50,931 nt of DNA from Candidatus Martarchaeota archaeon (lineage in GTDB: Archaea > Micrarchaeota > Micrarchaeia > Micrarchaeales > Micrarchaeaceae), in contig JAMCZI010000032.1 in NCBI GenBank assembly GCA_023485545.1, positions 1 through 50,931 on the forward strand, read 5' to 3'. The translations under genes and the position numbers were made by a program. Shown in pieces: positions 43,313 to 47,515 of the stretch (position 1 is its first letter; the number at the start of each line of letters is the position of its first letter). Below the pieces are notes generated by a model. It ran no database searches. It was not told the DNA's origin and was given only the letters and a program-made list of their open reading frames with translations.

Positions 43313-44365
43313 TTGATGCCGTTTAAAGCAGTAGATGGGGAGAGCGTCGACAGGGACAAGACAGAGCTGTTGAGGCAAAATGAGGGCATGGGAGAGATAG
43401 CCGAAGCATTTGACATAATAGGTCCTCCAAGAATGCTCATGATAAAGCACTTCGATTCGATATTGTCTGACAACCCATCGGATTCAAGAACAAAGGGATT
43501 CATACGGGTTTTATCGGAAGGCGACTTCACGAATGAAGAGTACATAGCCGCAAAGAAGGCTTTTATGATACTTAAGGACATGAAGCACGGGAACGTCCAT
43601 TACAGGCATGATGACTTCTTATCGGTCTCGAGCTCGTACGCTGACATGGAGGAGGATTACATAGTGTGCAAGGGCGACATTGAGGCGGAGTTCGGAGAGG
43701 AAATAGAGAGATACATAAGAGACGGGGTGTACTGCGAAGGAAAAGTCTACATGTTCGATGGGTTCAAAGATATTGAGGTGAGGGGGCTTGAACGCGACAT
43801 GCAGGGTGCCGGATCCTATTATGGTAATGTCAAAGACACGGTCTTTTACGTCTACGACTCTTCCAAAATGCGTGTGCGAGAGGTTCACGGATCGCTCTTC
43901 GGGGAGTATTATGACGAATCGGGGAACAGGGCATTTGTAGTCGAGGACGGCGAAAAAGTTGTTGCGATAGTAAATTTCAACGTGTCGAGAAGGCTGGGGA
44001 AGATGGAACTGGAGAGGATTGCGGACATTACGAAGTCGAAGGCCGAAAAGATTTATGAAATGTTCGACAGCAGCTATGAAGGTGATGCTGATAGCCAGAA
44101 CAGGGGTTATGTGAAGATTGCGATGGGCAAAAACAATGTTGACGACTATCAGGGAAGACCATTGGTGGTGATAGGGACGCTGAGGGAAGGCAGCAGGTTC
44201 ATGCTTATAACTTCAAACAGCAGGACATGGGAAGCCTACCTTGACGATTATCCAGTGTCTTTTTCGATAGAAAACTATCCCGGATTTACGGAACCTGATG
44301 ACGGGGTTTATGAAATCAAAAGCTCTTCCTTCCAAAAAATTACGGACAACAGCTCGCTCGAATGA
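43313..44365 (+). CDS. Hypothetical protein, possibly lineage-specific
   Basis: Long ORF; no family recognised. Confidence 0.65.
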   Translation: MMPFKAVDGESVDRDKTELLRQNEGMGEIAEAFDIIGPPRMLMIKHFDSILSDNPSDSRTKGFIRVLSEGDFTNEEYIAAKKAFMILKDMKHGNVHYRHDDFLSVSSSYADMEEDYIVCKGDIEAEFGEEIERYIRDGVYCEGKVYMFDGFKDIEVRGLERDMQGAGSYYGNVKDTVFYVYDSSKMRVREVHGSLFGEYYDESGNRAFVVEDGEKVVAIVNFNVSRRLGKMELERIADITKSKAEKIYEMFDSSYEGDADSQNRGYVKIAMGKNNVDDYQGRPLVVIGTLREGSRFMLITSNSRTWEAYLDDYPVSFSIENYPGFTEPDDGVYEIKSSSFQKITDNSSLE

Positions 44366-44435
44366 ACGACGGTGCGATATTTTACGTGCCGGGCTGTAAA
44401 GAGCGCACAGTCATTTGCTTGCCAAAAGCATAAAA

Positions 44436-44457
44436 GGCGGCAAAGCCGCCTTGTTTT
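44436..44457 (+). terminator. GC-rich hairpin terminator
   Basis: GGCGGC-aaa-GCCGCC followed by TTGTTTT. Confidence 0.65.
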
Positions 44458-44470
44458 CCAGGTGTGCCGG

Positions 44471-44500
44471 ATTTCTCCGGCAATTATATTTCTCCGGCAA
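44471..44500. repeat. Two 13-nt direct repeats ATTTCTCCGGCAA
   Basis: 44471-44483 and 44488-44500, just upstream of a TATA-like aaatatttaaat. Confidence 0.7.
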
Positions 44501-44638
44501 AATATTTAAATCTTTTCTTTAGTTACATATTTGTGTAGTAAAGTATAAATAATTTCTTAGAGTAAAATACATGGAAAATGCGTGCCGACGCTCTATAAAA
44601 CGGATGTGGCTTGGCCGACTTGTTTTCCAGGTGGTACA

Positions 44639-46663
44639 ATGGGAGAAAGAAAAGAAAGAGAGTTAGCGGAAGCAGGGCTTGACAAAGCTCTAAGAAGCAT
44701 TGTAAAAGAGGAATGCACGAAGGCATATCTCAATGACGAAATCGCTAATGGGGTTGTTTCGCAAGTTGCGGGGCACATCAAAAGCGTATTGCGTGCATTT
44801 GAGGTCGCCAGGCAATATGCAAATAAGGGGCTCGGAAAGAGATACACATTTGAGGTAAAGGTTGACGCCTCAGGGGTGCACGAGTCCAGCCTGGCGCACG
44901 ACGAAGCAGGGATGGGTCCTCTCCCACCCCACCGGATTAATATTTTTGCCCTTTTAAGGGCCCTGAAGGAAATTGCCTCTAGGCCTCTCAGAAAAATATT
45001 GGCGAGGCGCAATCTAATTGTACTTGGACGCCGGCTTTACAGGTTGACACCTTCTCATTCGTCTACCGTAAGAATAAGCAGGGCTTCTCTTCAGTATTCG
45101 GGGGAAAACGGATGGAAATGGACAAAGGCAAGGGGGCGACTGGCACTTGACGCGGCGCAGTCTGCAAACAGGCACATTGTGATCGTTGGCTCGTCAGGCT
45201 ACGGAAAAAGCACAATGCTCGAGACAATAGCCGGCGGGATATGTGGTTTAGGCGTTCCTATAGTGATGTTCGACGCACATGGTGAACATCGTAGCATGAT
45301 ATCCTCGCTTGGGGGCAGGGCGCACGACTCTTCGATTTCAGGCATAAACATCTTATCGCTTGATGGGACTTCGGAGAAGACTAGGGCGAGGGAGGTTTCC
45401 TATGCGATAGCCAGGACGTACTCCCTCGGATATCTGCAAAGACTTAAGCTGAACCAGTGCATATTGTATACATACAGGAAGTTCAGAGGAGCGGGAAGAG
45501 AGCCAGCAATCAGAGACCTGATCGCAGAGATAAACATATTCATAAGAAGGTCGAGATCAGCAGCCGAGAAGAACAGGCTCTACCAGATAAAGGACAGGGT
45601 AGAGGAACTTGATTATGGCACATTTTCAGAGGATGTATTCTCCATAAAGGAAGTTTTCAGCAGCGTGAATTCCTTCGATCTGTCGCGCATATATGGAGCC
45701 GACGCTAAAATGCTCTACATTGAGGAGCTGCTCAAGAGGCTCTATTCAAGGATGCCTGAGGCTAAAGCCGGAAGCATGCCGCGAATGTACATAATGATAG
45801 ACGAGGGCAGATCGATGATAGAGAACTCAGGGGCTTCGGCGGAAATAGTCAACAGCATCATGGAGGAGGGAAGGAAATTTGGGTATGCAGTGGTGCTGGT
45901 GGCACACAACGCTTCGGAGCTCAGCAAGCAAATCATAAGCAATGCAGGCACTCTGATAGCTTTCAGGTCAAAGGAGCCGTCGGACCTGAATTACATAGCC
46001 AACATAGTTTCAGGTGGGATGCAGAATATGCAGGAGGTTAAGAGCATGATGGCAAGGCTTGACGTGGGCCAGGCTATTGTGGCTGGCGGCTCGATTGGAA
46101 CACCTACTGTGATAGGGGTGCACAGGCGCCGTTACACGCAAGAACATGGAAAGGGCTGGCAGGATTCTTTATATGAAAAGCTTGCCGTGCCTGTGCTTCT
46201 GAAGGACGTAGTTGTGGAGGACGACATGCAGCTTAGCCGCGCTCTATATTCATTGCTGAATTCAGGAAAGGCAGAAATGTTCGATTTCAAGCTTAACGGG
46301 GCGAATGAGAGGTGGGTGATGCGGAAGAGCAATCAGAGTGCAGAACACGCAGTGATGGTGAAAAAGATAGCTGAGAGCGCATCGTCGTCAGGACTCTGGT
46401 GCCGTATATACAACAACTCTAAAGGACCAGACCTGGTAGTCTATCTGGGAGGCAAAAAGATAGCTATAGAGTATGAAACTGGGAGGAAGGCCATAGAAGA
46501 TAGTGTGAGGATGATAGCGTCTCGAAATCGAAGTTTTTCCAGGACGATAGTAGTTGTGAACGATTCACACGTAAATGAATACAAGAACGCTTTGCTTGAT
46601 GGTACGCTGGTTGTCGGTGCATCTGAAGCAATGCGTACCGGAATTAAGGAGTTGCTGGCTTAA
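44639..46663 (+). CDS. HerA/VirB4-like (DUF87) ATPase with C-terminal PD-(D/E)XK-like domain
   Basis: HIVIVGSSGYGKSTMLETIAGG (Walker A); PRMYIMIDEGRSMIE (Walker B); C-terminal GPDLVVYLGGKKIAIEYETGRK; GGTGG-N4-ATG start. Confidence 0.82.
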   Translation: MGERKERELAEAGLDKALRSIVKEECTKAYLNDEIANGVVSQVAGHIKSVLRAFEVARQYANKGLGKRYTFEVKVDASGVHESSLAHDEAGMGPLPPHRINIFALLRALKEIASRPLRKILARRNLIVLGRRLYRLTPSHSSTVRISRASLQYSGENGWKWTKARGRLALDAAQSANRHIVIVGSSGYGKSTMLETIAGGICGLGVPIVMFDAHGEHRSMISSLGGRAHDSSISGINILSLDGTSEKTRAREVSYAIARTYSLGYLQRLKLNQCILYTYRKFRGAGREPAIRDLIAEINIFIRRSRSAAEKNRLYQIKDRVEELDYGTFSEDVFSIKEVFSSVNSFDLSRIYGADAKMLYIEELLKRLYSRMPEAKAGSMPRMYIMIDEGRSMIENSGASAEIVNSIMEEGRKFGYAVVLVAHNASELSKQIISNAGTLIAFRSKEPSDLNYIANIVSGGMQNMQEVKSMMARLDVGQAIVAGGSIGTPTVIGVHRRRYTQEHGKGWQDSLYEKLAVPVLLKDVVVEDDMQLSRALYSLLNSGKAEMFDFKLNGANERWVMRKSNQSAEHAVMVKKIAESASSSGLWCRIYNNSKGPDLVVYLGGKKIAIEYETGRKAIEDSVRMIASRNRSFSRTIVVVNDSHVNEYKNALLDGTLVVGASEAMRTGIKELLA

Positions 46664-47515
46664 TCACCTGTTTTCCAGAAAATCAGCAAATTCCGTCATC
46701 TTCAAATAATTCCATACAGTAATTGAGGCGAACCGCTGGTAATACTCTTCCATGTGCGGCAGAAGCCGTTCCGAAATTGCAGCCCTGCCTGGATAGGCAG
46801 TTGCGCTTTCCTTCATATAATCAGAGATCGGCTTCCTGCCTGAAAGGTGCATACCCTCGGAAAGCATCCCATTCGGAGCAAAATAATCGAGAAGCGCATC
46901 GGCGAAGGCAGAGGCCTCCACAGATTTCTGCTTGAGGAAGCCGCCCTGTAATATGCGGTTGCGTATAAGGGTGCGTAGGACCACACCTATGGCAAGCGCG
47001 GGCTCCTCCTTTATCCTGTGATTTATCGTAAGGGATATTGCAGTCTCGCCAGCATTGTAGTAAAGCATGTTGCACGAAAGCCTCCCGTGTATGTTCTCGG
47101 TCAGTACGATGACAAGGGTCTTGGGCAGGTCTATGTCGAAAATCTTGTGCACCACAGGCTCAAACAGCGCTGCGGACTTGTAGGTGCGGATAAATGATTT
47201 CTTAAATGAGCGAAAAGTGCCGCTATGCCTGCTCATCATTGGTATGGATGCCCTATCAACAAGTTTTTTTGCTTCTTTTGACTTGAGAGATTCTATCTGC
47301 TTCTGGTTGTCGTGCACGACTGCGCTGTAGAATGCTTCCCTATCCTTCCCCAACCGGTGTATCGCATGTGCGGCGAGCGTAGACCTGTAGAAATCCTTGC
47401 CGTAGAGCATTGGATATAGCTTCATTATTTCAGGCATCGAGCTAGAGACGAAGAAAGACTCGTTTATGTATGCGAGCTTGCGTATCGTATTGCCTGTAGA
47501 AAATTTTATTCTCAC
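46664..47515 (-). CDS. Hypothetical protein
   Basis: Long ORF abutting acylphosphatase; no family recognised. Confidence 0.65.
   Translation of the reverse strand: MRIKFSTGNTIRKLAYINESFFVSSSMPEIMKLYPMLYGKDFYRSTLAAHAIHRLGKDREAFYSAVVHDNQKQIESLKSKEAKKLVDRASIPMMSRHSGTFRSFKKSFIRTYKSAALFEPVVHKIFDIDLPKTLVIVLTENIHGRLSCNMLYYNAGETAISLTINHRIKEEPALAIGVVLRTLIRNRILQGGFLKQKSVEASAFADALLDYFAPNGMLSEGMHLSGRKPISDYMKESATAYPGRAAISERLLPHMEEYYQRFASITVWNYLKMTEFADFLENR

Follow-up and report, generated by a model that had tools for sequence, protein, structure and literature searches.

HerA ATPases of archaea, and of some bacteria, act with a separate nuclease, NurA, and the question raised by the locus described here is whether a single protein that joins a HerA-like ATPase to a nuclease-like domain could do the work of both. 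The gene occupies positions 44639..46663, forward strand, of the window (the whole stretch of DNA that was analysed, 50,931 nucleotides), and lies on contig C6 of a 762 kb, 78% complete Micrarchaeota MAG (G000), whose two near GTDB neighbours are Candidatus Micrarchaeota MAGs. Read from its ATG, the ORF encodes 674 aa; an alternative in-frame GTG at 44582, 57 bp upstream of the ATG, would yield a product 19 aa longer. Two congeners contain full-length homologues with 86% and 78% identity to the 674-aa protein, and dN/dS values among the three congeners indicate purifying selection in every part of the fusion gene.

The protein starts with a genus-specific, helical extension (residues 1-125; 44639..45013), modelled with low confidence (pLDDT mostly 40-65) and not present in homologues from other genera, which appears to be coding but fast-evolving, as deduced from its dN/dS of 0.22-0.35. 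On the same strand there follow a HerA/FtsK-superfamily ATPase domain (around residues 126-495; 45014..46123; dN/dS 0.07-0.09), assigned from Pfam, fold search and dN/dS; a winged helix-turn-helix (around residues 503-562; 46145..46324), modelled by AlphaFold2 as helices plus two strands with pLDDT of ~90-97; and a domain with a PD-(D/E)XK nuclease fold (around residues 566-660; 46334..46618), recognized from its AlphaFold2 fold, Foldseek matches and invariant residues, and likewise under purifying selection (dN/dS 0.12-0.18). Sequence and structural models together confirm a fusion of a HerA-superfamily ATPase, a winged helix and a predicted PD-(D/E)XK-fold domain in cis, as anticipated in a preliminary description of this DNA, in which the winged helix had been taken for a linking segment.

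Pfam recognized nothing in the full protein apart from the ATPase, whose core matches DUF87 (PF01935; E=1e-11, 45.7 bits against a cut-off of 23.2), HerA_C (E=2e-10, above the Pfam cut-off) and TrwB_AAD_bind (PF10412; 24.8 bits, cut-off 20.5). The Walker A motif (GSSGYGKS, residues 184-191; 45188..45211) keeps G184, S186, G187, G189, K190 and S191 in 54/54 homologues, and D388 and E389 of the Walker B MIDE region (45788..45805) are equally invariant in the 54. Membership of the HerA superfamily, as first proposed, is thus clear from DUF87 and HerA_C, but the protein is not a HerA orthologue: it does not match the HAS-barrel (PF09378), its model shows no more than a beta hairpin ahead of the P-loop, its scores with the HerA equivalogs NF040819 and NF040937 (46 and 52 bits) are far under the cut-offs of 970 and 800, and the ATPase resembles those of VirB4, CedB and DndH about as much as HerA.

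By the profiles and features compared, the protein does not belong to VirB4, CedB/CedD, NurA or DndH either. The VirB4 profile TIGR00929 gave 39.7 bits against 643, and the VirB4/PrgI N-terminal region is absent. The best NCBIfam similarity of the ATPase is to the DNA-import ATPases CedB and CedD (70 and 69 bits), far under their cut-offs of 700 and 600, and the fusion differs from both in having a nuclease and no membrane anchor. A TrwB-type AAD-binding ATPase domain is present, as in VirD4/TrwB coupling proteins, and hydropathy revealed no N-terminal transmembrane anchor, the one weak segment being located beside Walker A, inside the ATPase core. NurA is rejected as well, as PF09376 is unmatched in the protein and the predicted fold is of the restriction endonuclease type instead of RNase-H-type. 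In whole-model fold searches the protein retrieved DndH-C as the best PDB match, together with HerA, VirB4 and TrwB, and DndH (of DndFGH) is the precedent from which a restriction endonuclease domain and a HerA/FtsK ATPase in one chain are already known as a class, in the opposite domain order. DndH has ~1700 aa and eight core domains, with the nuclease before the ATPase, and a defence setting (PMC10853773). The fusion runs from ATPase through winged helix to nuclease in ~540-690 aa (674 aa here) and has no DndF, DndG or other DndFGH-type neighbours, nor modification genes, and is consequently not a DndH.

The C-terminal 179 aa matched no Pfam family, AHJR-like and CoiA_nuc being marginal in 2-3 members only, and no PDB chain by sequence, so the motif initially called there was not checkable through a family match. 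We relied on an alignment of 54 sequences that represent most of the 49 genera covered by the search, with 21-76% identity to the window domain, from which AlphaFold2 produced a model (pLDDT 93, pTM 0.87) with the winged helix followed by the alpha-beta-beta-beta-alpha-beta core of restriction endonucleases. Its Foldseek neighbours in the PDB were FokI (E=2e-4), Bax1, Hjc resolvases, HindIII, EcoT38I and YaeQ; with a single match at E<1e-3 and a best target-normalised TM-score of ~0.5 (Hjc), these modest values assign the C-terminus to a fold, not to a family.

Ten residues, H570, P597, D598, A609, E611, Y612, E613, T614, M625 and R629, are invariant in 54/54 sequences. They include H570, a candidate metal ligand in an EH motif of helix alpha-A (46346..46348), D598 of a PD motif (46430..46432) and the stretch E611-Y-E613 (46469..46477), an ExE in place of (D/E)xK that is followed by T614-G615. 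The same signature is found outside the order, where 17 distant modules, borne by VirB4-type or other proteins, retain H570, D598, E613, T614 and G615 in 17/17 and E611 in 16/17, with one Asp. The conserved PD-(D/E)XK motif is therefore present as a variant, D598...E611-x-E613 preceded by a His in the first helix, with an invariant Glu at the lysine position. Of the D...(D/E)xE/K pattern suggested earlier, the acidic residues D598 and E611 hold, whereas the lysine then indicated is not the catalytic one; K617 is common within the order and not outside. In BamHI, ExE takes the place of ExK, and nucleases of the RecB type use a His in the first helix; by its conserved residues, the putative active site of the fusion is BamHI-like, D...ExE rather than ExK.

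A C-terminal profile search of 295 genomes of the phylum retrieved strong matches from 59 genomes of family f1 and 62 of family f2, both of one order, as well as weaker matches from 20 genomes of other orders; one f1 match (G057, E=4e-4) was marginal. The fusion is nearly always present in one copy per genome, the f2 homologues being shorter (~540 aa). In the gene tree, f1 and f2 group together (support 0.999), as do the f2 sequences (0.99), and f1 is recovered with weak support. A search of viral contigs was empty with the C-terminal alignment and gave only ATPase-level similarity with the full-length one, and tblastn of plasmids with the fusion matched only the ATPase core; with no full-length relative in either set, we rejected an origin in a mobile element or virus. 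Sequence comparisons thus indicate that the fusion gene is chromosomal and inherited vertically at the family level.

NurA is almost missing from the same order. The domain (PF09376) was found in 1/118 relatives and was not found in G000, which is 78% complete; in the phylum sample it occurs in 98 genomes, 2 of at least 142 in the order and 96 of at most 153 outside, counts in which MAG incompleteness introduces noise. PF09378 gave no above-cut-off match in the 118 relatives, but this profile is insensitive as a HerA detector in the lineage, also missing the HerA of genome G048, and HerA was sought with the G048 protein as query, which found no counterpart at E<1e-15 in the other 117 relatives. 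G048 itself contains nurA and herA side by side, with an overlap of a few bases (L131:4118-7041, in G048:C9), its NurA match being borderline for Pfam, along with the fusion, indicating that the HerA-NurA pair is detectable in this lineage when present. The Rad50 zinc hook was retrieved from 108/118 relatives; rad50 is on a different contig from the fusion, which is not part of a rad50-mre11 operon.

The near absence of NurA and of NurA-type HerA, together with a nearly universal fusion, suggests that HerA-NurA has been lost from almost all of the order, with the fusion carried in its place; neither NurA nor a NurA-type HerA was found in the host genome. This complementarity should be read as a correlation (n about 1), because the tree shows, in essence, a single loss of NurA and a single gain of the nuclease. 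Also, in five genomes at least 90% complete (G003, G021, G027, G030 and G043) we detected neither the fusion nor NurA, so there the function would be dispensable or performed otherwise. Four of them (G003, G021, G043 and G027) belong to f1 genera g2, g20 and g26.

Outside the order, the ATPase has its closest orthologues in families f11, f13 and f24, and these differ in their C-termini. The f11 orthologue has ~400 aa and no nuclease, while those of f13 and f24 end in a different restriction-type nuclease, REase_MTES_1575 (PF18741)/DUF559-like or Vsr/DUF559-like, as deduced from matches in three genomes (E=4e-6, 1e-5 and 5e-4) that are below the Pfam gathering score but share a motif. With window-type and DUF559-like C-termini on orthologous ATPases, one motor has been equipped with at least two kinds of nuclease. 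Since the orthologue group is poorly resolved in the tree, with a long-branched paralogue inside it (support 0.14), the orthologues outside the order are identified mainly from similarity scores. NurA is present in f11, f13 and f24 genomes, so that in f13 and f24, as in G048, it coexists with an ATPase-nuclease fusion.

Conversely, the winged helix-nuclease module of the fusion also ends ~1050-aa VirB4/PrgI-type ATPases of other orders (E down to 1e-13), so that two kinds of DNA motor have acquired it. These ATPases match PrgI and TraG P-loop profiles and the VirB4-like NF045971 (270 bits, below the cut-off of 325), and are encoded in operons with VirB6-like membrane proteins. Their ATPases are related to that of the fusion but form a separate clade (support 0.999), and they possess the PrgI/VirB4 N-terminal parts and operon partners that the fusion lacks. 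The module of these VirB4-type proteins had no plasmid or viral match. Examples with the winged helix-PD-(D/E)XK module and an ETG motif are L103:7720-10905, L104, L105, L111, L112, L115 and L117, and 10 matches come from genome G185; no relaxase was noticed among their neighbours. The module also occurs without an ATPase in short ORFs of 273-432 aa (L107:7896-8717, L110:6243-7541 and L119:7113-8039), of which that in L110 seems joined to a transposase-like stretch.

Gene neighbourhoods link the ATPase with DNA repair in one family, whereas in others they point towards DNA transfer. In f2, endonuclease IV (nfo; TIGR00587, 239 bits versus 130) is on the same strand within 3.4 kb of the fusion gene in 18/20 loci, upstream in 17 and separated by 9-81 nt in eight. 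In three genomes of genus g3, a VirB4-like ATPase of a T4SS-like locus is within ~5 kb of the fusion; the f13 and f24 orthologues adjoin operons of the VirB4-module ATPases, and the f11 orthologue is beside the gene cluster of a conserved CedB/VirB4-like ATPase. The conjugation-like link of the preliminary description thus finds an echo in recurrent neighbours of the relatives. In the window, one genus-specific ORF lies on each side of the fusion gene (43313-44365 and 46664-47515), with housekeeping genes beyond. These genus-restricted ORFs, of 350 and 283 aa, matched nothing in Pfam or PADLOC and had one chance-level NCBIfam match of 14.9 bits, in keeping with their having been noted as unrecognised.

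The host genome contains two T4SS-like clusters. One (L161, G000:C8:20000-32000), with a counterpart in L159 (G137:C1:42000-60000), is conserved and combines a CedB/VirB4-like ATPase of 505-512 aa with small proteins and membrane proteins, several of which have 7-9 TM segments in L161. Its ATPase has matches in most genomes searched, and the cluster is a candidate apparatus for DNA transfer or secretion throughout Micrarchaeota. The second (L126:9661-17043, in G000:C27) comprises a weak VirB2-like pilin, an 8-TM VirB6/CedA-like protein, a 381-aa DUF87 ATPase and a 751-aa VirB4-like ATPase.

We put about even trust in the reading that the fusion is a single-chain functional substitute for HerA-NurA. 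As an ATPase of the FtsK/HerA/VirB4 superfamily, it is expected to form a hexameric ring that pumps duplex DNA; translocating on a DNA end, the ring would carry tethered nucleases that trim the DNA, with H570, D598 and E611 as predicted metal ligands acting together with E613. The likely job of the fusion would be recombinational repair in company with Rad50 and perhaps also with endonuclease IV, and it might in addition supply processed DNA to the T4SS-like DNA-transfer loci of these archaea. This reading draws on the contrast between 2 genomes with NurA in the order and 96 outside, the missing NurA-type HerA and the persistence of the Rad50 hook; on the invariant H/D/E/E residues, the intact Walker motifs and purifying selection on the nuclease domain; on f11, which lacks the nuclease and has NurA, and on f13 and f24, where another nuclease is attached to the ATPase; and on the endonuclease IV beside f2 loci and the family-level vertical inheritance. 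The likeness to HerA-NurA consists of a nuclease combined with an expected FtsK/HerA-superfamily ring, in a genome with a Rad50 zinc-hook protein; the fusion differs in lacking the HAS-barrel, in having its nuclease in cis and in the PD-(D/E)XK fold of the latter. As NurA is of the RNase-H type, what would have been substituted is the function, without homology.

The main rival, which we regard as possible though rather doubtful, is that the protein is chiefly a soluble, T4CP-like coupling or substrate-processing ATPase of a chromosomal conjugation- or import-like T4SS, in which its nuclease would take the place of a relaxase by nicking or trimming the DNA to be transferred. The module shared with VirB4/PrgI-type ATPases, the T4SS-like neighbours in f11, f13, f24 and g3, the above-cut-off TrwB domain and the two clusters of the host genome would all fit, but there is no transmembrane anchor, the window and most f1 and f2 loci are beside housekeeping genes or nfo and not T4SS genes, and the ATPase clade is separate from that of the VirB4-nuclease proteins. 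A broader proposal, speculative and in our opinion unlikely to hold in full, is that Micrarchaeota possess a winged helix-nuclease cassette that shuttles between two kinds of DNA-pumping motor, the VirB4-type ATPases of transfer and a HerA-like one, that this motor-attached nuclease, independent of relaxase and of NurA, makes DNA for transfer and repair, and that in one order it replaced HerA-NurA altogether.

An anti-invader, restriction-like role on the lines proposed for DndH or for HerA-nuclease defence pairs, with a DNA-scanning ATPase and cleavage of foreign DNA by the nuclease, seems improbable. The protein does match HerA and mad8 of PADLOC as well as profiles of the DndH ATPase, DndH-C is the best PDB fold match and the predicted nuclease fold is FokI-like, but these profile matches cover the shared ATPase core only, the gene is essentially single-copy, vertical and chromosomal across 49 genera, no defence genes or modification partner were identified nearby, and viral contigs and plasmids offered no full-length relative. 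HerA-DUF4297 and HerA-SIR2 likewise combine a HerA-type ATPase with an effector nuclease, but they are two proteins, with another effector and a defence-gene context. The defence machine initially envisaged has nothing positive to recommend it, given vertical inheritance across the order and neighbours that are housekeeping genes here or endonuclease IV in f2. A C-terminal domain that binds DNA through a restriction fold but lacks catalytic activity is very improbable: the motif Lys is replaced by Glu, no family model recognizes the domain and Foldseek scores are modest, but H570, D598, E611 and E613 are kept in 54/54 sequences and nearly so in the 17 outgroup modules, BamHI has D-ExE, and the different nuclease on the orthologous ATPase of f13 and f24 suggests a need for cutting.

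The gene is preceded by an unusual leader. Two terminator-like hairpins (GGCGGCaaaGCCGCC and TGCCGGatttCTCCGGCA; 44434..44482) and an archaeal TATA-box-like element recognized by inspection on the forward strand (AAAATATTTAAAT; 44499..44511) are conserved in the three congeners, and two copies of a 20-bp direct repeat, 19/20 identical and on the forward strand, are located at 44445..44464 and at 44614..44633, the second overlapping the ribosome-binding region. The repeat-bearing promoter reported at the outset is thus confirmed in part, as a local feature: the repeats, spaced 169 bp in all three species of the genus, are confined to these, with no further copy in the host genome and none in five other genera (eight genomes checked). 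The near-invariant, structured leader (44425-44640), whose second repeat can pair with an upstream GGAAAA stretch, folds better than shuffled sequences (z=-2.6), and an Rfam search of the region found no match. The repeats might serve in autoregulation or as a site for the encoded nuclease.

Our literature search found no earlier description of this fusion; the 2004 FtsK-HerA survey (Iyer et al.) was outside that search. HerA-NurA is a core end-resection machine of archaea, and nearly a whole order appears to do without it, with a motor and a predicted nuclease in one chain instead. The fusion offers a compact, assayable system in which H570, D598, E611 and E613 constitute a concrete, mutable candidate site, and it is probably a one-piece tool of this order for trimming DNA in repair or DNA transfer.
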